From the NCBI GenBank assembly GCA_022925895.1, contig JAKSYS010000001.1, positions 558,001-622,000 on the forward strand: a DNA stretch of 64,000 nt, given 5' to 3'. The position numbers were made by a program, and so were the translations under genes. Positions within the stretch are counted from its first letter, which is position 1. Every line of letters begins with the position of its first letter. Origin of the DNA: Fragilaria crotonensis (lineage: Eukaryota > Bacillariophyta > Fragilariophyceae > Fragilariales > Fragilariaceae). Of this stretch, positions 34,310-46,117 are shown piece by piece. The notes beneath the pieces were generated by a model. That model saw nothing but the letters and a program-made list of their open reading frames with translations, ran no database searches and had not been told where the DNA came from.

Positions 34310-35596
34310 GGGGTTGCGGGAAACACCGATTTTTCACTACGGTTCCCGCAACCCCGAAAAATTCTGGTGTACAGTTCAGTACTGGTATCAGTATAGAGTA
34401 GTGAAATATGGAGTATGTATAAGAGTATAGCAACAATATATATATACTCGACTACGGATAAAATGAAATAATATATTTGATTTCGTGTGCTGCTTCCTCC
34501 TAAAAACCCAGAACTCTACTAGAGAGAAAACCGTTTACCAGGGTTTTTAACGGCGTCTTGGATCTCTGCCATTGATCAGCTCGTATAGCGTAGTAGTGTG
34601 ATATATGCATATATGTCATACCATGGTACTAGTACCTTTGATTACCATGTAAGAAAGGCGAAGGACAAAGCCGGCAGCTTTTTTAGGGGATGCGGGAAAC
34701 AGCTGGTTTCGATTTGTTGTTTCGTACTATTATCGAAAAATGGAGCTCGACAAAAATAGCGTCTTTCAGAGAATTTTCGAGTTGTCCGGAGGATTTTCGA
34801 GTTGTCCTTCTGGATCACTTCTTAACCCTATTTTTGTGTAGCTTCTGGTATAGGTCTACAGCGATTAAAAAGAAGTGATCCCAATTCCGGATCACTCATT
34901 TCTTGAAACGACTTTTCAGAGCGATTTGACTTTTTGAAACTCGTTTCAGAGGATGAAATTACTTTTACATGGACTACTCTACTGACATTCCTACACACCC
35001 TAGTACTCAGTACCGCTATGCATTAGGGATACGCTCTCGGACAACTTCTCGGATCACTCGGACAACTTCTCGGATCACTCGGACAACTTCTCGGATCACT
35101 CGGACAACTTCTCGGAACACTCGGACAACTACGTATATGATTGTCGAATCCGTGTTGAGCTCTCTCTGACGCAATAGCGTGACACCAGAGAATCAATTCC
35201 AGCCGGTTCCCGCAACCCCTAAAAAAACTGCCGACTTTGTCCTTCGCGTATCTTACATGCTCATCACAGGTATGACATATATGCATATATCATACGATAG
35301 CAATACAAGCTGTTCAATGGAAGCGCGATCCGAGACGCCGTTACGAACCCTGGAAAACGGTGTTGTCGCTAGTAGTAGAGTTCTGGGTTTTTAGGAGGAA
35401 GCATACGTAATCAAATATATTATTTCATTTTATGCGTAGTCTACTATATATATATTGTTACTATACTCTTATACTACAGTACTCTGTATTCCAGTACAGT
35501 ACTTGTATTCTGTACTGATTCCAGCACTGAACTGTACGCCGGAATTCTTCGGGGTTGCGGGAACCGTATTGAAAAATCGGTGTTTCCCGCAACCCC
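34310..35596. mobile_element. Foldback element FB1 (1287 bp, non-coding)
   Basis: Ends GGGGTTGCGGGAAACACC and its reverse complement. The arms are inverted repeats of about 390 bp (34310-34700 against 35205-35596), each starting with a nested smaller hairpin (GGGTTGCGGGAA...TTCCCGCAACCC). The flanks carry a 3-bp duplication AGT on both sides. A sister segment at 53615-53630 keeps the uninterrupted site GTTGTAGTGATG. The 500-bp interior holds four to five copies of a 21-bp tandem repeat (CGGACAACTTCTCGGATCAC plus T) at about 35038-35131. No ORF; movement would need a transposase from elsewhere. Confidence 0.85.
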
Positions 35597-35798
35597 AGTG
35601 AGTAGTGTGTCATTTTTTATTTGGTGACGCTTTCTGAATCAGAAGAAGTGCTGAGGAAGGTGAACTACGACGTATGCATCGATATAAAATCCATGGAGAT
35701 TTGAAGTACATAGTCCAAATTCCATTGGCGTTGATATGCACGGCTGTTGAAGCGGATAACCATTCTTACGGATTTCGGATTTCACGTGTGTGTAATAT

Positions 35799-37095
35799 GG
35801 GGTTGCGGGAAACACCGATTTTTCAATACGGTTCCCGAAACCCCGAAAAATTCCGGCGTACAGTTCAGTACTGGTATCAGTAGAGAGTACTGGAAGACAG
35901 AGTATGTATAAGAGTATAGCAATAATAGATATACAGTACATATCCTGCGTATAAAATGAAATAATAAAGTCATATTTGATTACGTGTGCTGGTTCCTCCA
36001 AAAACCCAGTATTGTACTCTACTCTGGAGAACACCGTTGTCCCGGCTTCGTAACGGCGTCTTTGATCGCTCCATGGAACAGCTCGTATCCTATAGCGTAT
36101 GATCGTATGATATATGCATATATGTCATACCTAGGATGAGCATGTAAGAAACGCGAAGACAAAGCCGGCAGCTTTTTTAAGGGTTGCGGGAACCGGCTTG
36201 AATTGATTCTCTGATGTCACGCTATTGCGTCAGAGAGAACTCGACACGGATTCGAGATGCATATACGAAGTTGTCCGAGTGATCCGAGAAGTTGTCCGAG
36301 TGATCCGAGAAGTTGTCCGAGTGATCCGAGAAGTTGTCCGAGAGCGTATCCCTAATGCATAGCGGTACTGAGTACTAGGGTGTGTAGGAGTGTCAGTAGA
36401 GTGGTCCATGTAAAAGTTATTTCATGCTCTGAAACGAGTTTCAAAAAGTCAAATCGCTCTGAAAAGTCGTTTCAAGAAATGAGTGATCCGGAATTGGGAT
36501 CACTTCTTTTTAATCCCTGTAGACTTATACCAGAAGCTACACAAAAATAGGGTTAAGAAGTGATCCAGTAGGACAACTTGAAAATCCTCCGGACAACTCA
36601 AAAATCCTCCGGACAACTCGAAAATTCTCTGAAAGACGCCATTTTTGTCGAGCTCCGTTTTTCGATAATAGTGCGAAACAACAAATCGATACCCGCTGTT
36701 TCCCGCATCCCCCAAAAACGCTGCCGGCTTTGTCAACCGGGTTTCGTACATGCTCATAGGTATGACACGTATGCATTTATCATACGATCATACGCTATAG
36801 GATATAGGATACGAGCTGTTCGAATGGACGCAATCCAAGACGCCGTTACGAAGCCGGGAACGGTGTTCTCTACTAGTAGTATGATAGAATACAATACTGG
36901 GCTTTTGGAGGAAGCAGCACACGTAATCAAATATATTATTTCATTTTATGCGTATTTGTTTATATACACTGTTGCTATACTCTTATACATACTCTGTATT
37001 TCAGTACTCTATACTGATACCAGTACTGAACTGTACGCCGGAATTTTTCGGGGTTGAGGGAACTGTATTGAAAAATCGGTGTTTCCCGCAACCCC
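35799..37095. mobile_element. Foldback element FB2 (1297 bp, non-coding)
   Basis: Same termini and arms as FB1 (35799-36200 against about 36700-37095), but with the interior in the opposite orientation. It is flanked by the 3-bp duplication TAT. The sister segment in unit 2 shows the empty site CATACGTCGATACACAT at 50554-50570. The interior again contains the 21-bp repeat (reverse strand, about 36269-36342). FB1 and FB2 lie only about 200 bp apart with old unit sequence between them, so they are separate insertions. Confidence 0.85.
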
Positions 37096-37228
37096 TATGT
37101 CGATACACATATATATTTGGATTTTGCATTTCCACGTGGGAACGATACTGCACAACTTTACAATACTGCGACGAACGAGTTTAAGCTCATTCTTGAGTCA
37201 ATGCTTAGCACTCTAGTTGCACCCATTT

Positions 37229-37405
37229 TCAATGCGGTTCCCGCAACCCCGAAAAATTCCGGACTACAGTTCAGTACTAACAGCTTTCGCATAGCGGCTA
37301 TGGTATGTGCGTATATGCTATATGCATATATGTCATACCTGTGATGAGCATGTAAGAAACGCGAAGGACAAAGCCGGAAGCTTTTTTGGGGTTGCGGGAA
37401 ACAGC
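37229..37405. mobile_element. Foldback element FB3, left fragment
   Basis: Contains TTCCCGCAACCCCGAAAAAT at the left, then an internal deletion, then GCATATATGTCATACCTG and GGGGTTGCGGGAAACAGC. The same arm in FB2 continues without break into GGGTATCGATTTGTTG. Here that continuation is found only at 45911, after 8.5 kb of foreign DNA. Confidence 0.8.
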
Positions 37406-37859
37406 TCCGCGTACCTACAGGTTAAGTGGGATGCCAGTGGTTAGACGGACAGTACCCAGTACTAACAAGAGTCGGGGGTCACTACCTATCATCGGCAGAT
37501 GTCATCGGCGTTTCGGGTCGGGAATGTGTCACCATCCGGCCAAGAATACGAGGCGATGACGATCAACGATGGAGAATAGTTTACTGCTCAGCGTTTCTAC
37601 GCTGAGTTCATGAAGGACCGACCATCTGGTACAAGAACAACAAAGGCTACTTGTTACCTGGTTACTCAGGATCTTGGGATAACCTCAAGTCCGGTTACTC
37701 AATATCAAGCAACAAGTTCCTGGTTGGGTGTACTTCGGTATTATCCTCACTTGTTTGGATTTTGACCTTCGCCCTCGGACCGTACATCCAAGGTTGTTTC
37801 GTCTTTATTTCCGTTCATTTGATTCTTCTTTTTCTTTTTGTTTCTCGTCTCCGTTGCTC

Positions 37860-40238
37860 ATGTCATTTGATCCGTTGACCGCGCTTCTCGGCGATGCGTC
37901 CGCGTTGTTTCCGGTGGGTTCATCCACCGACTCCTCGGGTGCTCCTCCGATCCTTCGGGATAGGGGGGTTGGTTCGGTAACTTCTTCAGGTACGCCCCCG
38001 TCTAAGATGTTCTCGGTTGTTAAACTCGATCGTTCGACTCCGGGTTTGTGTTTCGGTATGATAGGTGTGGGAAGCGCGTTTTGTTTTAAAATTGACTGCA
38101 AGGTGAAATCCCATATGGAGCACAAAATTGCCTTGACGGCACAGGAGTCTGAGGTGGTTGTTATTCAAAGACCGTCACCTTTTACGGCTTTTCGAGAACC
38201 TATCATAGCGGCGAGCCGTCTATCGGACGGTGTGTGGAGAGATTGGGAGAAGAAAACAATGGGGTTGCTAGATTGGTCGAAGGAATTTCAGGCTGTCGAC
38301 TGTGCGGTGGACGGCATGGCCTCCTTCGAAGATGTGAAGGAAGCTACAGAGTTCATCGATAAAGCTGACTTGTTCAGGACACCATCAAAGCGGAAGATGG
38401 ATCCAAAGGATGCTGGGCCGTTTGGGGAGGATTGGGAGTTCATCCACCACGAGCGAATGCTCCCGACTGATGCTTATGATCTGGACCAAACCATCAAAAC
38501 CGGGGTGACCAAGGAATTTTTGACTAAAACGCTGGCCACCGTGGAGACAAGTATTGTAGAAGCAGGAAGTGCTCTGGAAGAGGTCGCCAAAGTTACGTTA
38601 GAAAGGTTTGTGTCAAACGAAAAGGACTCGATGCTCATGGCTGGAGCAATTCAGTCGTTGAAAGGAAACCTGGGTGCTCCCACTGTGATAGATGACAAGT
38701 TTGGCTCTCCTACGCTGTGGGGAACGACGGCCATCATTGTGGATGAGGTGAACAAAATGGGCGAGTCTATTGAAAACCTTGAAGCCGAGATGATACCCTT
38801 TAAAGCATCTGTTACCGAGTTACTTCAGGCCCATGATCCGGAAGAAGCGAAGGCAAAAGCGGATAAGTTTCTTGAAGTTCTCACGATGGTTATGACGAGG
38901 ATGAAGCAGCTGTCCCCGGAGTTCGAAGCGGTCAAGTTGTCGGTTGCAAATTTGGTAAAAGGAAAACGCACGTGGGAGGAGAGGTTGGATCAGCTCGAGG
39001 CAGGATTGACCTTGAACAAAGCGAAGAAAACTAGATTCAACAAAGACGACGGCGACCCGGTAGACGACTTGATGAAAATGCTTAACGACAACACGATGAG
39101 TTCTGATCCAAAGCAAAACGAGAGTGGAGGTGACGAGTTCGCTCAGAATGCCAGCGGAGCAAACGGAGGGTGGATAAGCCAGGAACTGGAAAGAAGGCTC
39201 GGACTGTGCGAGGAGGATCTCAAGGGGCTGAAAGCCTCAGGTGACGACCTGGCGGTTAAGTTTGGCGGTCTCGGATTCCGAAGTGTGAACGACTGTCATG
39301 TGTGGGCTGCCAAGCATTTTCCTGGAAATCGCTATTGTCTCATCATGGACCCATTACTCATGTTGGACAGGATATGCGGGGTTGATGACATCCATTCATC
39401 GGCAGGTAACACTTGGAAGACAATGGAATCACGCATCAAACTCAAAATCACCACCGGTGCGGAGGCAGCTGCGTTGGAAGCGTTAAACAATTTGAGACCA
39501 AGGATCTTTCACGTTGGTCGGCCAGCCATGATGTATTTACGAAACACTTCGCGTCTGAGCAAACTGCTCAAACAAACGGATTGGAAGTCTGGAGGAGGCG
39601 GGGTTAGAGAACACATCCTCAAGCAAATGAACATCCTCCACGCCTCCGTGACTCAGGACATAAATCATGCGTTCGGGGGGCGAGCCCATCTTGCCCAAGC
39701 GCATCTGATCGCTTCTCAAAGTCTGACAGCAACGATCACGTCCATAACGCAACTCATGGGGGCTGTGGACACCATATATGAAAAACTACACGTACAATCC
39801 AAGTTCTCGTCTGAGGCCGCGTGGTGCTTGACCATGCAAATCCTCGACAAAGTCTGCGAGGAGCTCTTTGTTCCGAAGGATGGGGTTATGCAGGCTATGA
39901 CTCTTGGAGACCCAGAATCCATCTGCGCTCACGTGTTGTACTCAAGCTTTAGATCTCAGGATATTATGGCAGGATACGTGGAGCACCAATTCGAAAACCA
40001 TCCATCGGTGTCAACCGAGTTCATTCGTTTCTTGGCTACGAATTCGGGATCCGAAAAGGTTGAACAGCTGGCGGAATCAATGAAGACGGTGAAAGAATTG
40101 GCGACAAAGGCTTCAACAGAGGCAAGAGCGGCAGGCACCAAGTCCGACACGGCGTCAACGAAGACTGCGTCCTTAGCAACAGAGTTGACCGCAGCCATTC
40201 GCAGAATTAAGACATTGGAGGATCGGACAAGAGGATGA
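37860..40238 (+). CDS. Gag-like structural protein of the retroelement
   Basis: 792 residues from the ATG at 37860. The N-terminal 60 residues are Ser/Pro/Gly-rich. The middle (about residues 250-430) is highly charged and likely helical or coiled coil (GESIENLEAEMIPFKASV, EERLDQLEAGLTLNKAK). The C-terminal half has longer ordered segments such as VHSAN-free helices around FGGRAHLAQAHLIASQSL and AWCLTMQILDKVCEELF, and ends with a Thr/Ala-rich coiled stretch. No CCHC zinc knuckle is visible. The gag assignment is from position before RT and composition, not from a recognised domain. The stop is a single UGA followed by C; the RT frame continues directly after it. Confidence 0.55.
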   Translation: MSFDPLTALLGDASALFPVGSSTDSSGAPPILRDRGVGSVTSSGTPPSKMFSVVKLDRSTPGLCFGMIGVGSAFCFKIDCKVKSHMEHKIALTAQESEVVVIQRPSPFTAFREPIIAASRLSDGVWRDWEKKTMGLLDWSKEFQAVDCAVDGMASFEDVKEATEFIDKADLFRTPSKRKMDPKDAGPFGEDWEFIHHERMLPTDAYDLDQTIKTGVTKEFLTKTLATVETSIVEAGSALEEVAKVTLERFVSNEKDSMLMAGAIQSLKGNLGAPTVIDDKFGSPTLWGTTAIIVDEVNKMGESIENLEAEMIPFKASVTELLQAHDPEEAKAKADKFLEVLTMVMTRMKQLSPEFEAVKLSVANLVKGKRTWEERLDQLEAGLTLNKAKKTRFNKDDGDPVDDLMKMLNDNTMSSDPKQNESGGDEFAQNASGANGGWISQELERRLGLCEEDLKGLKASGDDLAVKFGGLGFRSVNDCHVWAAKHFPGNRYCLIMDPLLMLDRICGVDDIHSSAGNTWKTMESRIKLKITTGAEAAALEALNNLRPRIFHVGRPAMMYLRNTSRLSKLLKQTDWKSGGGGVREHILKQMNILHASVTQDINHAFGGRAHLAQAHLIASQSLTATITSITQLMGAVDTIYEKLHVQSKFSSEAAWCLTMQILDKVCEELFVPKDGVMQAMTLGDPESICAHVLYSSFRSQDIMAGYVEHQFENHPSVSTEFIRFLATNSGSEKVEQLAESMKTVKELATKASTEARAAGTKSDTASTKTASLATELTAAIRRIKTLEDRTRG

Positions 40239-43106
40239 CAGGGTCGAGGAGGAAAGGGGGAAAGGACGGCGTCGGAAGACTGCCGAACGAATGTTAGTAG
40301 TTTGGTGGTCCAGATATTTGAACCTACAACTAATAAAAACATCGTCACCAGAAACCAACGGAACCCCCTCCCTCCTCTTTTAAACGATACCCCTGTAGTG
40401 CCAAGGTTGAAAGAAGTAAGGCGTGGCTTCAGGGCAGGTGTGACTCCCAAATCGTGCGGCGTATTATTCGAGAGGTGCCCCGTGTGGCTTTGGACCCTCC
40501 GACCTGCTGAATGGCACACCATCGTCATGACGAGGACGGATGAAAAACGATTAAAGGACAGCTACCCAACTACCTGGGAGAGGTTCAAACGAAGCATCAA
40601 GCCTGCACTTGACGTTAGCAACGGCGAAGGGATACCCGAGGCTGTTGATGTGTGGTGGATAAGCGGGTCTGGCGCATTTTGCGAAAACGTTGGACTAGTA
40701 CCCGCATCAGACCGGAGAGTGACTTGGATAGCAGATGGCGGTCGACGCACTCCTAAATCCATCGGTACGTGGAAATGGTACAGAGTGTCGCATCAAAACG
40801 TAGGAGGAGTCACCAATGCAAGAGGATCGTTTGGGGTAATGGGGATGGATCGACTCACTCTAGATCCTGATCTGCCTCGAACGTTGGGTCATGTGCTAAA
40901 GTACTCGCTGAGAGCTACTCCGTGTGAACGTACGCTTGCAGAGGACCACTACACAGTCCACGATCGCCTGAGTTTGGGGAGGCACGAGCTTCCAATTGTT
41001 TACGAAACGCATTTTTCCGGAACCGGTTGGGGGAAGAGGAGTCTAGACGACTGTGAACTGGCTCTGGCGTTCGAGTTGCCTGACTTCGTGACATGGGATA
41101 TCAAGTTCGTTACGGAAATTGTTCCGTTGCAAATGATGCGGGCGGTGATGGATGAGATAATCTCTCAATTGACGCCTCCGGGAGAGGCTTCGAAACGCTT
41201 GAAAATCTCCCACACACCAGCATCCTCTATCTGTTCAGAGGCGGATCGGCACTGGATCCCAGCCTTACGCAAGTGGCTCCCTGGGTCATGGTCCGAGTTC
41301 CCAATTTCAGAGCAAGCGGTCAAGTCTGACGATGCTACGGTCAACGTGTCTCCCTGGCACTCTCGGATTCAACTGGTTTTACCATGGTGTCGCACACGTT
41401 TGATACGATTATTCGAGGATCTTGGGTTGCGGCGATGGAAACGCAACATCACGCGTTCCTTTCGGGACTACCTGTCAACGACTTACGGCGACCAGTGGCC
41501 TGCAAGGTTAGCCCAGATTCGCCAGGCTCGGCTTGGGAAGAAGCGAGATCTGGGAATGAGTTCCAACATTGCCCTCAAGCGAAGGAAAACATGTGGGGAC
41601 TCTGTCAATAGGGGGGTTGTTCCGTCTGTCACGGAACGGGCTGCTGGTCTCGGCAACAATAGGAACACGGAAAGGCCTCCCGCGTTCGACACTCTCAACA
41701 ATGATACGGGCAGCGAACTGTTTGCCGACGTGACCAAAGGATGTGCCGTACTGGCGCAAATTTTAGCAAGTTCCTGGTGGGAATGGTCCAGCGGTTCTGC
41801 GTTGTGCTTCTGGCGGTGGAATGGATTGGAGCAGGTGCGAGCAGCAAGGGATGGAATGGAAATCTTTGTGGCCGCTCCGTTACCGAGGGGGCGCGGATCC
41901 AAAAACAAAATGCGATTGCCACCTGACGTTCGCAAGATGGTAGCCTCAAAACTGGACACTATGTTCCTCCGTTCCTACTTAGAGGAAGGGTATGTGGAAA
42001 GCAAGGTTCATTTCTTCGGCGTCCCGAAAGGCGAAGACGACATCCGGGTCGTCTTCGATGGCACGTCCAGTGGTCTAAATGAGTGTCTATGGGCCCCAAA
42101 CTTTTATCTGCCTACCTCGCGAGCAGCGTCTACCATGCTCACGTTTTCAACTTGGATGGCGGACGCAGACTTCGGCGAAATGTTCCACAACTTCCCGATG
42201 CCAGAACGTATCAGGAAATCTTCGGGGGTCGATACAACGCAAATGGTCCCTTTTATGACCTCCCCGGTGGCGGTGGGGAAGCATGGTCTGTGTCTCCTGC
42301 GGTGGTCAAGGCTATTCATGGGAATGAGACCGAGTCCCTACAACGCAGTGCGTTTCTACTATTGGGGAGAAGAATTTATCCGTGGGAACCCCAGCTCTCC
42401 TGACAATGCGACTCGCTACGACCGCGTCATCCTAAACTTGCCGTGCATGGAAACATACGACCCGCGACAACCCAAGGTGATGAAATGGTCTGACTCTGCC
42501 AACAACAACAAGGGTGCGGTTGCTGGTGACTTTGTGACATTTGTTGACGACTGCCGGATTACTGGGTGGTCAAAGGAAAGCTGTCACGACGTTCACCACC
42601 AGTTCGCGAGTCGGGTGCAGTTCCTAGGTATGCAGGACGCACCCAGAAAGTTCCGGCCACCGTCTCAGACTCAGGCGGGAGCTTGGACCGGAACCATTTT
42701 CCGAATTGATGACTTGGCAATAACCAAATCGGTTACTCAGGAAAAATGGGATAAGGGCCGCGGGATAATATCAAATATGAAGAAATTATGCGATGACGCA
42801 GTCGCGGGACGACCACTCCTAAATCACAAGGACCTTGAACGAACAACAGGGTTCTTGAATCATCTTTCCATGACGTTCGAAGAAGTCACTCCTTTCCTGA
42901 AAGGATTTTATCTTACTTTGAACTCTTGGCGACCTCAACGGGACCAAGACGACTGGAAAATGTCGGACAAGCGATGGGAAGCAGAAGGGGATGGGGCCCA
43001 AGAAGTGGAGATCTCTCAGGATGCGAACGTACCAGCGGAAGTTCTAGGAAGCACTCGACTGGGTTCTGACGTGGCAGCCTTGGCTGCCATCTTTTCCCAG
43101 AGGTAG
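40239..43106 (+). CDS. Reverse transcriptase of the retroelement
   Basis: Same frame as gag, open immediately after the gag UGA; no ATG is needed before 40500, so it is probably made as a gag-pol fusion. The first 500 residues have no domain I recognise. The RT palm follows: GYVESKVHFFGVPKGEDD and IRVVFDGTSSGLNECLW (fingers), motif A MADADFGEMFHNFPM, motif B RLFMGMRPSPYNAVRFYY, motif C FVTFVDDCRITG with the metal-binding Asp pair, then RPPSQTQAGAWTGTIF, and a thumb-like HKDLERTTGFLNHL. The extra insert between motifs B and C (ending in NLPCMETYDPRQP) is unusual. The ORF stops at TAG 43104, about 30 residues after the thumb, while RNase H lies in the -1 frame. Confidence 0.8.
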   Translation, partial: QGRGGKGERTASEDCRTNVSSLVVQIFEPTTNKNIVTRNQRNPLPPLLNDTPVVPRLKEVRRGFRAGVTPKSCGVLFERCPVWLWTLRPAEWHTIVMTRTDEKRLKDSYPTTWERFKRSIKPALDVSNGEGIPEAVDVWWISGSGAFCENVGLVPASDRRVTWIADGGRRTPKSIGTWKWYRVSHQNVGGVTNARGSFGVMGMDRLTLDPDLPRTLGHVLKYSLRATPCERTLAEDHYTVHDRLSLGRHELPIVYETHFSGTGWGKRSLDDCELALAFELPDFVTWDIKFVTEIVPLQMMRAVMDEIISQLTPPGEASKRLKISHTPASSICSEADRHWIPALRKWLPGSWSEFPISEQAVKSDDATVNVSPWHSRIQLVLPWCRTRLIRLFEDLGLRRWKRNITRSFRDYLSTTYGDQWPARLAQIRQARLGKKRDLGMSSNIALKRRKTCGDSVNRGVVPSVTERAAGLGNNRNTERPPAFDTLNNDTGSELFADVTKGCAVLAQILASSWWEWSSGSALCFWRWNGLEQVRAARDGMEIFVAAPLPRGRGSKNKMRLPPDVRKMVASKLDTMFLRSYLEEGYVESKVHFFGVPKGEDDIRVVFDGTSSGLNECLWAPNFYLPTSRAASTMLTFSTWMADADFGEMFHNFPMPERIRKSSGVDTTQMVPFMTSPVAVGKHGLCLLRWSRLFMGMRPSPYNAVRFYYWGEEFIRGNPSSPDNATRYDRVILNLPCMETYDPRQPKVMKWSDSANNNKGAVAGDFVTFVDDCRITGWSKESCHDVHHQFASRVQFLGMQDAPRKFRPPSQTQAGAWTGTIFRIDDLAITKSVTQEKWDKGRGIISNMKKLCDDAVAGRPLLNHKDLERTTGFLNHLSMTFEEVTPFLKGFYLTLNSWRPQRDQDDWKMSDKRWEAEGDGAQEVEISQDANVPAEVLGSTRLGSDVAALAAIFSQR

Positions 43107-44182
43107 TACCTCGAGTGAGCTTACGTTCGAAAAAGTTGGTGACTGTGGTTTACGGTTTCGGAGACGCTTCCGGAACTGGCCTCGGAGCAACATTCACGTG
43201 TGGGTCTGGGTTCAATTTCAGAATTGGAGTCTGGGGTGCCTCGGAGCAGGAGGAGTCCTCGAATTGGAAGGAGTTTTCAAACGTTGTTGAGGCCTTGGAA
43301 GATGAAGCGATCAACGGCAACCTGGACGATACTGAAGTGTTCATGTTCACGGACAACTCCACTGTGGAAGCCTGCGCAACTCGGGGTTCGTCATCGTCTC
43401 CGAAATTGTTGGAGCTGATCATTCGTTTGAGAGCGCTGTCCATTCGCTGCGGGATCAAGCTCCATATTTTTCACGTTGCAGGGACTCGCATGATAGCTCA
43501 AGGGACCGATGGAGTTTCGCGTGGTTTTCTTGCTCTGGGAGTAATGGCTGGGGAAGCCATGAGTGCGTTCATACCAATTCATAAATCAGCTCGGGATCGA
43601 TCCCCGGACTTTATCAAGTGGATAAAATCGTGGTCAGGAGAAGGGAGCCTGATTCTCAATCCTATGGATTGGTTTGAAGCGGGTCACGATATAGACGGTT
43701 GGGGTATGGGAGTGGACGGATTTGAGCGCCCCGAGCTAAAAGAAGGCAGGACCTACATCTGGTCACCCCCTCCTTACGCGGCGGACGTCGCTCTAGCTGA
43801 GCTGAGGAAAGCAAGGATCAAGAGACAGACTTCGTCCCATGTGTTCGTTTGCCCTCGTTTGTGCTGTCCCTTGTGGTTGAAGCAACTATACAAGGCTTCC
43901 GATGTCGTTCTCGAATTTCGTCCTGGCTCTTTGCACTGGCCTGAACATATGCATGAACCTGTTCTAATCGGTTTGATATTCCCCTTTCTCAGGCACCCAC
44001 CGTGGCAGCTGCGAAATACTCCAAAGATGCACGCAGTGGGTCGGCAACTGCGCGCGTTGCTCGAAGGAGAGGGCGTGGACGCACGCGATTTTCTGCGCAA
44101 ATTTTGGAGCCAATGTCACCGGTTTAGGGACATGTCGGAAGCTATGGTGCGGAAAGTGTTATACTTCAGCAGACAAACCTGA
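43070..44182 (+). CDS. RNase H domain of the retroelement
   Basis: The frame is open from 43070 (after a TGA at 43067) to the TGA at 44180, in -1 relative to RT, with a 37-nt overlap and no early ATG. RNase H signature residues: YGFGDASGTGLGAT (first Asp), SSNWKEFSNVVEAL (Glu), FTDNSTVEACATRG (second Asp) and HIFHVAGTRMIAQGTDGVSR (last Asp), the layout seen in DIRS-type and pararetroviral enzymes. It would degrade the RNA strand during cDNA synthesis. After it come about 200 residues including FVCPRLCCPLWLKQLYKA and RDFLRKFWSQC, without a known domain. Either RT and RH are joined by -1 frameshifting or one base is wrong or lost near the TTTTCCC run at 43092-43098. Confidence 0.8.
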   Translation, partial: RGSLGCHLFPEVVPRVSLRSKKLVTVVYGFGDASGTGLGATFTCGSGFNFRIGVWGASEQEESSNWKEFSNVVEALEDEAINGNLDDTEVFMFTDNSTVEACATRGSSSSPKLLELIIRLRALSIRCGIKLHIFHVAGTRMIAQGTDGVSRGFLALGVMAGEAMSAFIPIHKSARDRSPDFIKWIKSWSGEGSLILNPMDWFEAGHDIDGWGMGVDGFERPELKEGRTYIWSPPPYAADVALAELRKARIKRQTSSHVFVCPRLCCPLWLKQLYKASDVVLEFRPGSLHWPEHMHEPVLIGLIFPFLRHPPWQLRNTPKMHAVGRQLRALLEGEGVDARDFLRKFWSQCHRFRDMSEAMVRKVLYFSRQT

Positions 44183-45285
44183 ATTCTACATTGCAGGAGA
44201 CAGTCCATCCGAGGTTGGAGAGGGAAATTTTGTTGTCCTGCAAGAACCTTCGGCTTAACGGACCTTTTCTACCGCCGGGACCGTTACCAAGCTTCGATCA
44301 CTGCGGATACGAGGTGGCTTTGCTGATGGTAGTAGCGTCGTTAGAAAAGGGGAGGCACTCTGAAGGACACAAACAATGGGACACCATTCGAAAGATCAGG
44401 TCAACTTTCTCAAATCAAGTGAGAGCCGCAGCCATATCAAACTTTTCTTCCTTGTCGTTGGCGGACAACCAAGGGAGTAGTTATCAGCGACTAGCTCCTG
44501 ACCCGTGCGGCTCATTATGGTTTCAACGATTCATGGCGGGGTGCAAGAAAAGGATGGGTCAAGACTGGCGCCCAAATCGAGCCATAAGCGTTGAGATCAT
44601 GGAGGAGTTGCTGAAATCCGCAGAAGGCAGAGCACTTGCGGCTACAGAAGAAGAAACACGTCACAAGTGGGTTATGGGCGGAGCCTACTTTTGTGTGTGC
44701 TTCGTCCTGTCCCTGAGAAGTACAGAAGGTCTACTAGCCGACCTCGAAGGAATGATCGAGCATTATAACGATGAGAGACCTCACGTGATAATCCCTCTGC
44801 TCGGGAGATTCAAAGGTGAGGACCACTCAAGTCAACACCTAATGCCGTGTGTGTCCGTTACCGAGTCGGGCATCCAGGTCAAAACATGGATACGCCGTCT
44901 CATGGCGGTTCATCGGGCTAAGGGCCGAGTGGTTGGTCCAATGTTCATAAATGACCGAGGCGTTCAGTCGTCAACCTACGAGATGAACAGCTTGTTGATC
45001 GAATGTCTGACTGACATTCTCGAACAAAGCCCCACGTTGTTTGGGTCGGACGTAAAAACGGCTGAAGACTTGGTGGACAAGTACCACGTGTTCCGTTCGT
45101 TCAGGAGGGGTTCGGAATCCCGGGCCGTCGCTATGAAAGTAAGTGACGCGGATCGATATGTGGTTAATCGTTGGAGGAGAAAAGAGATCGCAGGAGCCAG
45201 CCGAGTCAACCACCCCATAGATCAGCACTATGTGGACGTGTCCTTGGTATCTCTCTCATTTCTCCGATACACCAAAGCAATGTGA
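44128..45285 (+). CDS. Tyrosine recombinase of the retroelement
   Basis: The frame is open from 44128 (after TAG 44125), again -1 relative to RNase H, overlapping it by 55 nt, and without an ATG start. The N-terminal half fits a core-binding domain (SLWFQRFMAGCKKRMGQDW). The catalytic half has SLRSTEGLLADLEG (candidate Arg I), a DxRPHVIIPLLGRFKGED beta region (candidate Lys), YHVFRSFRRGSESRA (box II, with Arg in place of the usual His of HxxR), and a terminal candidate nucleophile tyrosine in DQHYVDVS or FLRYTKAM. Enzymes of this class insert circular cDNA by site-specific recombination without staggered cuts that need repair. Confidence is moderate because the motifs are divergent. Confidence 0.65.
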   Translation, partial: GHVGSYGAESVILQQTNLNSTLQETVHPRLEREILLSCKNLRLNGPFLPPGPLPSFDHCGYEVALLMVVASLEKGRHSEGHKQWDTIRKIRSTFSNQVRAAAISNFSSLSLADNQGSSYQRLAPDPCGSLWFQRFMAGCKKRMGQDWRPNRAISVEIMEELLKSAEGRALAATEEETRHKWVMGGAYFCVCFVLSLRSTEGLLADLEGMIEHYNDERPHVIIPLLGRFKGEDHSSQHLMPCVSVTESGIQVKTWIRRLMAVHRAKGRVVGPMFINDRGVQSSTYEMNSLLIECLTDILEQSPTLFGSDVKTAEDLVDKYHVFRSFRRGSESRAVAMKVSDADRYVVNRWRRKEIAGASRVNHPIDQHYVDVSLVSLSFLRYTKAM

Positions 45286-45732
45286 AAATATCGGAGCCAG
45301 CCAGCAAATGAATCAGTCAGCTGGTTTTGATAAAGTCATTCACCGATTTTGGTGTCGTGAAATCCCTCGTGCGAGCGAGGTCTGAGTTGTTTCTCGAGGT
45401 GGGGGTTTTGAATCTAAGGTCGCTGCGTCTGGCCGAAGGCCCAGGCGTCAGTCACCTGTATCTAATGGAACGCCGAACCGATCGATTGGGGAGCCGCCGT
45501 GTTCGTTGGCGATCCTTCAAGAAGGTATATCTCCTCCCGGTAGTCCAATCCATGTGTTGAAGACTTTGTGCCAACACACGGATAGGGCCCCAGGACTCAA
45601 GGAGAACAACCCTTTCGAGTCTTTGGAACTTTTGATACATGAATCCATGCGGGCTCGCATGACCCTGAGGAGGGTGAAACGATAGGGTAGGAGGGTGCTA
45701 CTGTGCCTCTGCACTACTGTCCCCCATTACAC

Positions 45733-45765
45733 GAGTTGAGGCATAACACCTACATGCCTCAACTC
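45733..45765. repeat. Hairpin in the 3' region of the retroelement
   Basis: Perfect 12-bp stem GAGTTGAGGCAT / ATGCCTCAACTC with a 9-nt loop, 450 bp after the recombinase stop. It could mark the 3' processing region or part of the terminal repeat system. A second, imperfect palindrome (GGCGGTCCTAACTTA ... CCACCGCC) follows at about 45830-45868. Confidence 0.6.
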
Positions 45766-45910
45766 ATGAGACATATCAATGATGAATGCACTCTAGTACA
45801 GGATTAAGCAACCTGGTACTAGATGCTGTTGGCGGTCCTAACTTATTAAGTTACATGAGACCACCGCCTAGTGTTTGTACTGATTACTGGAAGTCTCGCT
45901 ACTGGAATCC

Positions 45911-46028
45911 GGGTATCGATTTGTTGTTTCGCAATATTATCGAAAAACAGAGCTCCACAAAAATGGCGTCTTTTTAGAGAATTTTTGAGTTGTCCGGAGG
46001 ATTTTCGAGTTGTCCTTCTGGATCACTT
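45911..46028. mobile_element. Foldback element FB3, right fragment
   Basis: Starts GGGTATCGATTTGTTG exactly where the FB2 arm continues after AAACAGC, and includes AGAGCTCCACAAAAATGGCG and GTTGTCCGGAGGATTTTC from the interior. It ends near GGATCACTTC, truncated, followed by unit 2 sequence. Confidence 0.8.
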
Positions 46029-46117
46029 CACCTAATTACGGCTCACGGCGCGAGGCAGTCTTCTTGTACATACTGTACAGATATCCTCTATCAAAACGCA
46101 GCGTCTGCGGTCTGTCC

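Follow-up and report, generated by a model that had tools for sequence, protein, structure and literature searches.

The DNA analysed here is a window of 64,000 nucleotides that corresponds to positions 558001-622000 of the 726-kb contig JAKSYS010000001.1 of the freshwater diatom Fragilaria crotonensis (genome of 62.1 Mb in 881 contigs). The genome report describes a draft of 61.85 Mb in 879 contigs, assembled with Canu from Nanopore reads (N50 17.8 kb) and polished with Illumina reads (PMC9476933). On the + strand, the window contains at positions 37406..45910 an inserted element of 8505 bp, organized as a region A, a series of open reading frames (ORFs) and a region B. This element is a tyrosine-recombinase retroelement of the DIRS order: it encodes a reverse transcriptase (RT) and a ribonuclease H (RNase H), a phage-like tyrosine recombinase (YR) takes the place of a DDE integrase, and the insertion occurred without target-site duplication. 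Related copies were found on other contigs of the same genome, which are designated below by C-numbers (C30, C64, etc.).

All the coding parts of the element are on the + strand. The first ORF (37728..40238, 836 amino acids) contains a coiled coil and no CX2CX4HX4C zinc knuckle. Its Pfam match is only to a coiled-coil family (Tropomyosin, 23.2 bits for a cut-off of 38.6); its assignment to gag is by position only, and we call it the gag-position ORF. The second ORF (40302..43106, 934 amino acids) encodes the RT, which was recognized by its motifs and by the RT fold predicted by a structure model of the relative P0006. Motif A (DADFGEMF) starts at position 42162 and motif C (FVDD) at position 42540. 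The original prediction had emphasized the divergent motif A and a long insert before motif C. Both are present, but they are family-wide and not peculiar to this copy, the consensus of motif A across relatives being D-x-D-x-G-E-M/C-F-x-N-F. The third coding part (43115..44182), out of frame with the RT, contains the RNase H motifs GDASG, KEF, FTDNS and GTDGVS, followed by a domain characterized by the sequence WSPPP (43571-44179). The last ORF (44191..45285, 364 amino acids) is a truncated YR in which the R, K, H-x-x-R, W and Y motifs are retained; a YR fold was predicted for the relative P0123.

The gag-like, RT, RNase H and YR genes that had been announced were thus all located, and the announced lack of integrase, protease and long terminal repeats (LTRs) was confirmed at the level of the models and repeats searched. 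No integrase, protease or RT model exceeds the Pfam cut-off in the ORFs of the window (rve_3 obtains 13.6 bits for a cut-off of 26.5). No LTR-like repeat was detected inside 37406-45910, where the longest internal direct repeat is of 29 nt (72-76% identity) and the longest inverted pairs are of 16-17 nt (82-88%). Across the family, RVT_1 gives only sub-threshold matches, in 13 of 30 RT rows (29 distinct), and no integrase model was found by Pfam in any of 32 related YRs. Searches of the PDB sequences with the RT and YR profiles gave nothing usable. Among the YR relatives P0122-P0241, the His of the HxxR box is replaced by Asn in 88 of 120 sequences, and two CxxC motifs near the N-terminus could be part of a zinc-binding piece.

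The element interrupts a foldback element, of which the left part is at 36505..37405 and the right part at 45911..46035, as delimited by comparison with an unbroken foldback copy (34599-34821). When the flanks 37405|45911 are joined, they align without any gap across the joint with this unbroken copy (85% identity over 224 bp), so that no target-site duplication accompanied the insertion. A single C at the 37405/45911 joint can be assigned neither to the element nor to the flank. The 5' end TCCGCGTACC recurs at other sites in C30, C244, C255 and C840/C423 (C840 and C423 share one flank), and the 3' end GGAATCC recurs at other sites in C30, C244, C255 and C90. The breakpoints that had been deduced from the broken foldback element are therefore borne out by the gapless joint, and the search of the genome that had been proposed to confirm both ends gave copies ending at the same points (C30, C244, C255, C840/C423 and C90) and not at different ones. 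The base to the left of the element is a C at all ten distinct readable sites (window, C30, C244, C255, C840/C423, C133, C307, C478, C33 and C98/C10); in C133, C307, C478 and C33 the left boundary was set by the A-start motif of a second A repeat, and the flanking C may there derive from a circular form of the element. A pentamer is repeated across the C30 insertion (tagtc) and, with an offset of one, across the C244 insertion (tactc), which may be due to chance. The interrupted foldback element lies beside several partial foldback copies in both orientations (34310-36208, 76-89% identity), which form a nest of related inverted-repeat elements. The copies of C423 (L024) and C840 (L023) show the same 5' insertion with near-identical flanks and are probably two haplotypes retained in the assembly.

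The copy of the window and that of C30 are 99% identical (85 substitutions over 8493 aligned sites and 10 indel events). Compared with C30, C244, C255 and C64, the window has lost 255-257 bp in the N-terminal part of the YR gene, the joint of this deletion being at 44225..44228 (+ strand). The identities of C244 were taken from BLAST, its alignment being unreliable near its own 2-kb deletion. The missing segment encodes an N-terminal part of the YR with the motif FEC-x2-C-x-F, which is found in 111 of 120 relatives and not in the ORF of the window. A spliced intron was considered as the origin of this gap and rejected, since the segment encodes a conserved part of the YR in the relatives and no GT..AG borders were read. 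Moreover, RT and RNase H are in different frames in the window; in C30 a single frame is open from before motif A to the RNase H, and C307 has a single ORF of 1325 amino acids across the RT-RNase H stretch. An open gag ORF is found in the window copy but not in C30. Single-base frame breaks could partly correspond to sequencing errors. The element had been presented as complete and full-length, which does not hold: it has one B and no second A, it lacks the 255-257 bp of the YR start, and its RT and RNase H are in different frames. Judged from its sequence, this copy is a dead, defective derivative with exact ends.

The terminal regions were defined by comparison with the relatives. Region A (37406..37835, + strand, approximate 3' limit) is the equivalent of a 5' repeat and matches the A2 repeat of C64 in positions 1-49 and 314-430. 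Region B (45392..45910, + strand, approximate 5' limit), the equivalent of a 3' repeat, was recognized by comparison with the B repeats of C64 and C133 and ends with ..GGAATCC. In C133, C307, C478 and C33, the organization is A1-ORFs-B1-A2-B2 with repeats that are 98.4-100% identical; A1/A2 of C133 and C307 measure 398-404 bp, and the length of B1/B2 is 519 bp in C64 and 498 bp in C133. C64 is a nearer relative (74-80% identical to the window in RT, RNase H region and YR protein) whose 5' end is off the contig and which displays B1-A2-B2. The B1|A2 joint and the B2 end are also present in C383, C204, C67, C58, C350 and C353, and C549 has two B copies. A single B is found in the window, C30, C244, C255, C90, C223 and C547. 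C760, whose repeats are only 84% identical, was left out of both classes. Over the 21 3' ends examined, which are a subset of the YR-bearing places of the genome, two B copies were counted in 12, one in 7 (window included) and three in 1, the last one being unclear; the 5' ends were not seen for C383, C204, C67, C58, C350, C353, C549, C90, C223 and C547.

Other copies differ by the number of their repeats. In C456 (L036, L047), the tail of the element is a tandem array of three B and two A copies (B-A-B-A-B). C549 (L090) and C547 (L091) are 98.4% identical over 6.7 kb, but the former has two B and the latter one B, which implies that the one-B state arises repeatedly. These two copies represent a second, distant subfamily (27% identity to the window for YR, 39-40% for RT), in which motif C contains IDD and the RNase H is followed by DPPP. 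In C98 (L044) and C10 (L045), a solo A-B unit that shares 99% identity with A2-B2 of C383 is inserted in another repeat family; as both contigs share their flanks, this is one insertion seen twice. In C300 (L089), a copy of that repeat runs uninterrupted through the joint (99% over 165 bp, 30 of which lie beyond the joint) and represents the empty site, which agrees with the joint of the window in the absence of a target-site duplication. Taken together, the sequences of the three-B copy, of the solo A-B unit with its empty site and of the C549/C547 pair point to recombination between repeats. In C658 (L088), an exact 15-base B|A joint AATCCTCCGCGTACC occurs at about position 1531 in a sequence otherwise unlike the element, which is either chance or an insertion-like site.

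We propose, with a probability of about 0.8, that the 8505 bp of the window are a defective DIRS-order copy in a single-unit A-ORFs-B form, after the loss of one A and one B. This proposal starts from the observed ends, the lack of target duplication, the repeat architecture of the relatives and the deletion, and from structure models of relatives that predict the RT and YR folds. On this basis we infer a circle, a step of strand transfer and a path to the single-unit form, which would be as follows. The transcript of full-length relatives (A1-gag-RT-RNase H-YR-B1-A2-B2) would be reverse transcribed, and the internal B1-A2 joint would serve as the template restoring the outer ends, giving a circular DNA. 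For split-repeat elements, a model of reverse transcription with annealing between repeats has been put forward (PMC6681497). The YR would then recombine the B|A joint of the circle (..AATCC|TCCGCG..) with chromosomal DNA without target duplication. The sequence of the B1|A2 joint is that expected for the joined outer ends of a circle, and thus fits such an insertion by the YR. In the form of the window, one A and one B may have disappeared when the two B repeats recombined, either in the circular DNA prior to insertion or later, in the chromosome, and the reciprocal loss would give the solo A-B form; solo AB repeats of Cafeteria have likewise been attributed to recombination (PMC8547959). Recombination in the circle (by the YR or by host enzymes) and recombination in the chromosome both fit the data and are not separated here.

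Several points weigh against this proposal. The element is known here from the genome sequence alone, and no circle, RNA or activity was seen. The RNase H is identified by motifs and one sub-threshold Pfam match. The empty site of C30 was looked for in the genome and not found. C255 also has RT and RNase H in separate frames, so that part of the frame break could be old or programmed, although C307 is open throughout this stretch. Finally, the nearest relatives comprise five single-B copies (window, C30, C244, C255 and C90) versus one two-B copy (C64), which is more than rare independent loss would suggest. This distribution (apart from C64, each of the five 3' ends in the closest subfamily shows a single B) speaks for another explanation, namely that the subfamily moves in the single-unit form, through circles that carry one B|A joint and are inserted directly, either in trans or with their own YR; the window, C30 and C244 are moreover 98-99% identical at three different sites. 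We regard it as unlikely, because C64 retains B1-A2-B2 at 74-80% identity and because the two-B/one-B dimorphism also separates C549 from C547, so that loss recurs. The lack of A2-B2 could also be an artefact of assembly, the two B repeats (about 500 bp and up to 100% identical) having been collapsed into one. The Nanopore reads used with Canu have an N50 of 17.8 kb (PMC9476933) and equal repeats were resolved at 12 other 3' ends, which makes this collapse very improbable.

Loss of one A and one B remains our preferred explanation. The choice between the Ngaro and PAT/Toc types involves the domain located after the RNase H. The RNase H end motif is followed by at least 180 further residues in 157 of 201 RT relatives. 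The sequence W-x-P-P-P is present in 137 of the 201, W-x-P-A-P in 26 and neither in 38. In the structure model, this region shows the order strand, PPP, helix, strand, helix, strand, and the PPP pattern recalls the NPPY region of N6-adenine methyltransferases. What is known of the methyltransferase domain of DIRS elements would point the same way. In print, the only motif noted was DLFAS, which is listed there as a pol motif (PMC2685390). Nine phage genes and six IMG/VR loci supplied a set of 15 phage Dam proteins, against which hhalign gave the domain a score of 24.3-24.8 (E 0.0076-0.0085, probability about 5%) with PPP aligned on NPPY. A score of 24.3 or more occurred in 0 of the 100 column shuffles and in 2 of the 60 block shuffles. 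With the T1-like phage Dam alone (26 of 29 loci, three being dropped for stops), the hhalign probability was 0.1%. No usable match came from searches with the domain against Pfam, PHROGs, PDB sequences and phages, and PF05869 had one sub-threshold match across the Fragilaria genome (C38, E 0.18), at no YR place. PPP is mostly preceded by A, S or T, which makes a methyltransferase activity doubtful. Altogether, the sequence data are a hint, not proof, that the domain is weakly methyltransferase-like.

This domain matters because PAT elements are described with a methyltransferase, and Ngaro and VIPER without (PMC4157794; PMC3266345). The original prediction favoured a Ngaro-type element, and the gene order and the split direct repeats of the relatives do fit, as do their internal repeats after the YR, which are not found in the window copy. 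However, split direct repeats are common to Ngaro, VIPER and PAT/Toc, and with a possible methyltransferase-like domain the Ngaro type is only one of two fits. The other one, a PAT/Toc-type element with split repeats and a methyltransferase, is suggested by the WSPPP domain, its hhalign score relative to the shuffles and its strand-PPP-helix-strand order, and by the description of Toc3 in algae without a Gag zinc finger (PMC4157794), the Gag of the window being likewise without one. The low hhalign probabilities, the lack of Pfam, PHROG or PDB-sequence matches and the doubtful activity stand on the other side, and we consider the chances of PAT/Toc to be about even.

The comparison with known elements extends to their details. 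As reported for Ngaro of Cafeteria burkhardae (PMC8547959; PMC4157794), the relatives display A1-[ORFs]-B1A2B2, gag-RT-RNase H-YR on one strand, internal repeats after the YR and solo AB repeats. In contrast to the Cafeteria proteins, which are reported as detected by PF00078, PF17919 and PF00589 (PMC8547959), the RT is here sub-threshold and no integrase model is found, and the Fragilaria family has the extra domain after the RNase H. PAT/Toc3 shares the split direct repeats, the possible methyltransferase-like domain and the lack of a Gag zinc finger (PMC4157794), but the methyltransferase is here only suggested by a weak Dam-like signal, and the likeness is drawn from repeats and domain content. 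DIRS1-like elements share RT-RNase H, a YR in place of an integrase and the absence of target duplication; unlike the relatives described here, which have direct repeats and the YR in last position, DIRS1 is described with inverted terminal repeats, internal complementary regions and the YR before pol (PMC3266345). VIPER also has split direct repeats, but VIPER/TATE are known from kinetoplastids (PMC6681497). Cryptons resemble the single-unit form in their YR insertion without long repeats but are described without RT (PMC3212892), which is present here. Finally, the absence of a long direct repeat and of an integrase above the cut-off separates the element from LTR retrotransposons.

Within the family, RT, RNase H region and YR were inherited together (Mantel tests on 12 elements, r 0.965-0.989, each with 0 of 999 permutations), which gives no sign of an origin of RT and recombinase in unrelated families. 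The RT obtains only sub-threshold Pfam matches and the YR none, which makes a distinct clade, as originally suggested, plausible on sequence grounds. By protein search, the family comprises at least 767 relatives (E <= 0.001 among the best 7990 candidates), and the best 120 matches of each of three protein searches are only unnamed, "hypothetical" or F. crotonensis proteins. In IMG/VR, no relative could be confirmed when the RT alignment was used as the query. Published accounts mention Ngaro and PAT-like families in Ectocarpus (PMC12477816), the Cafeteria Ngaro as a YR retrotransposon of a stramenopile (PMC8547959) and a table with 14 DIRS copies for Phaeodactylum (PMC5859163), and the result listings of the openly licensed literature contained no description of the present family in a diatom. 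We rate it as an undescribed family, divergent in sequence, of a mechanism class already known. As this large family is nearly invisible to Pfam, annotations relying on Pfam will miss it.

The copies that are nearly identical but differ in having or lacking the second repeat pair, together with the solo A-B unit and its empty site, offer natural material on circle formation and resolution by YR retrotransposons. A tentative idea, possible but not the likelier outcome, is that in this large and nearly unannotated diatom YR clade, circular DNA that has two B|A joints is resolved by the recombinase into two products, a coding circle and an A-B minicircle, each of which could be inserted. If this is true, the copy of the window would be an inserted coding circle and the unit of C98/C10 an inserted minicircle, and a step otherwise only modelled would have left both its products in the genome.
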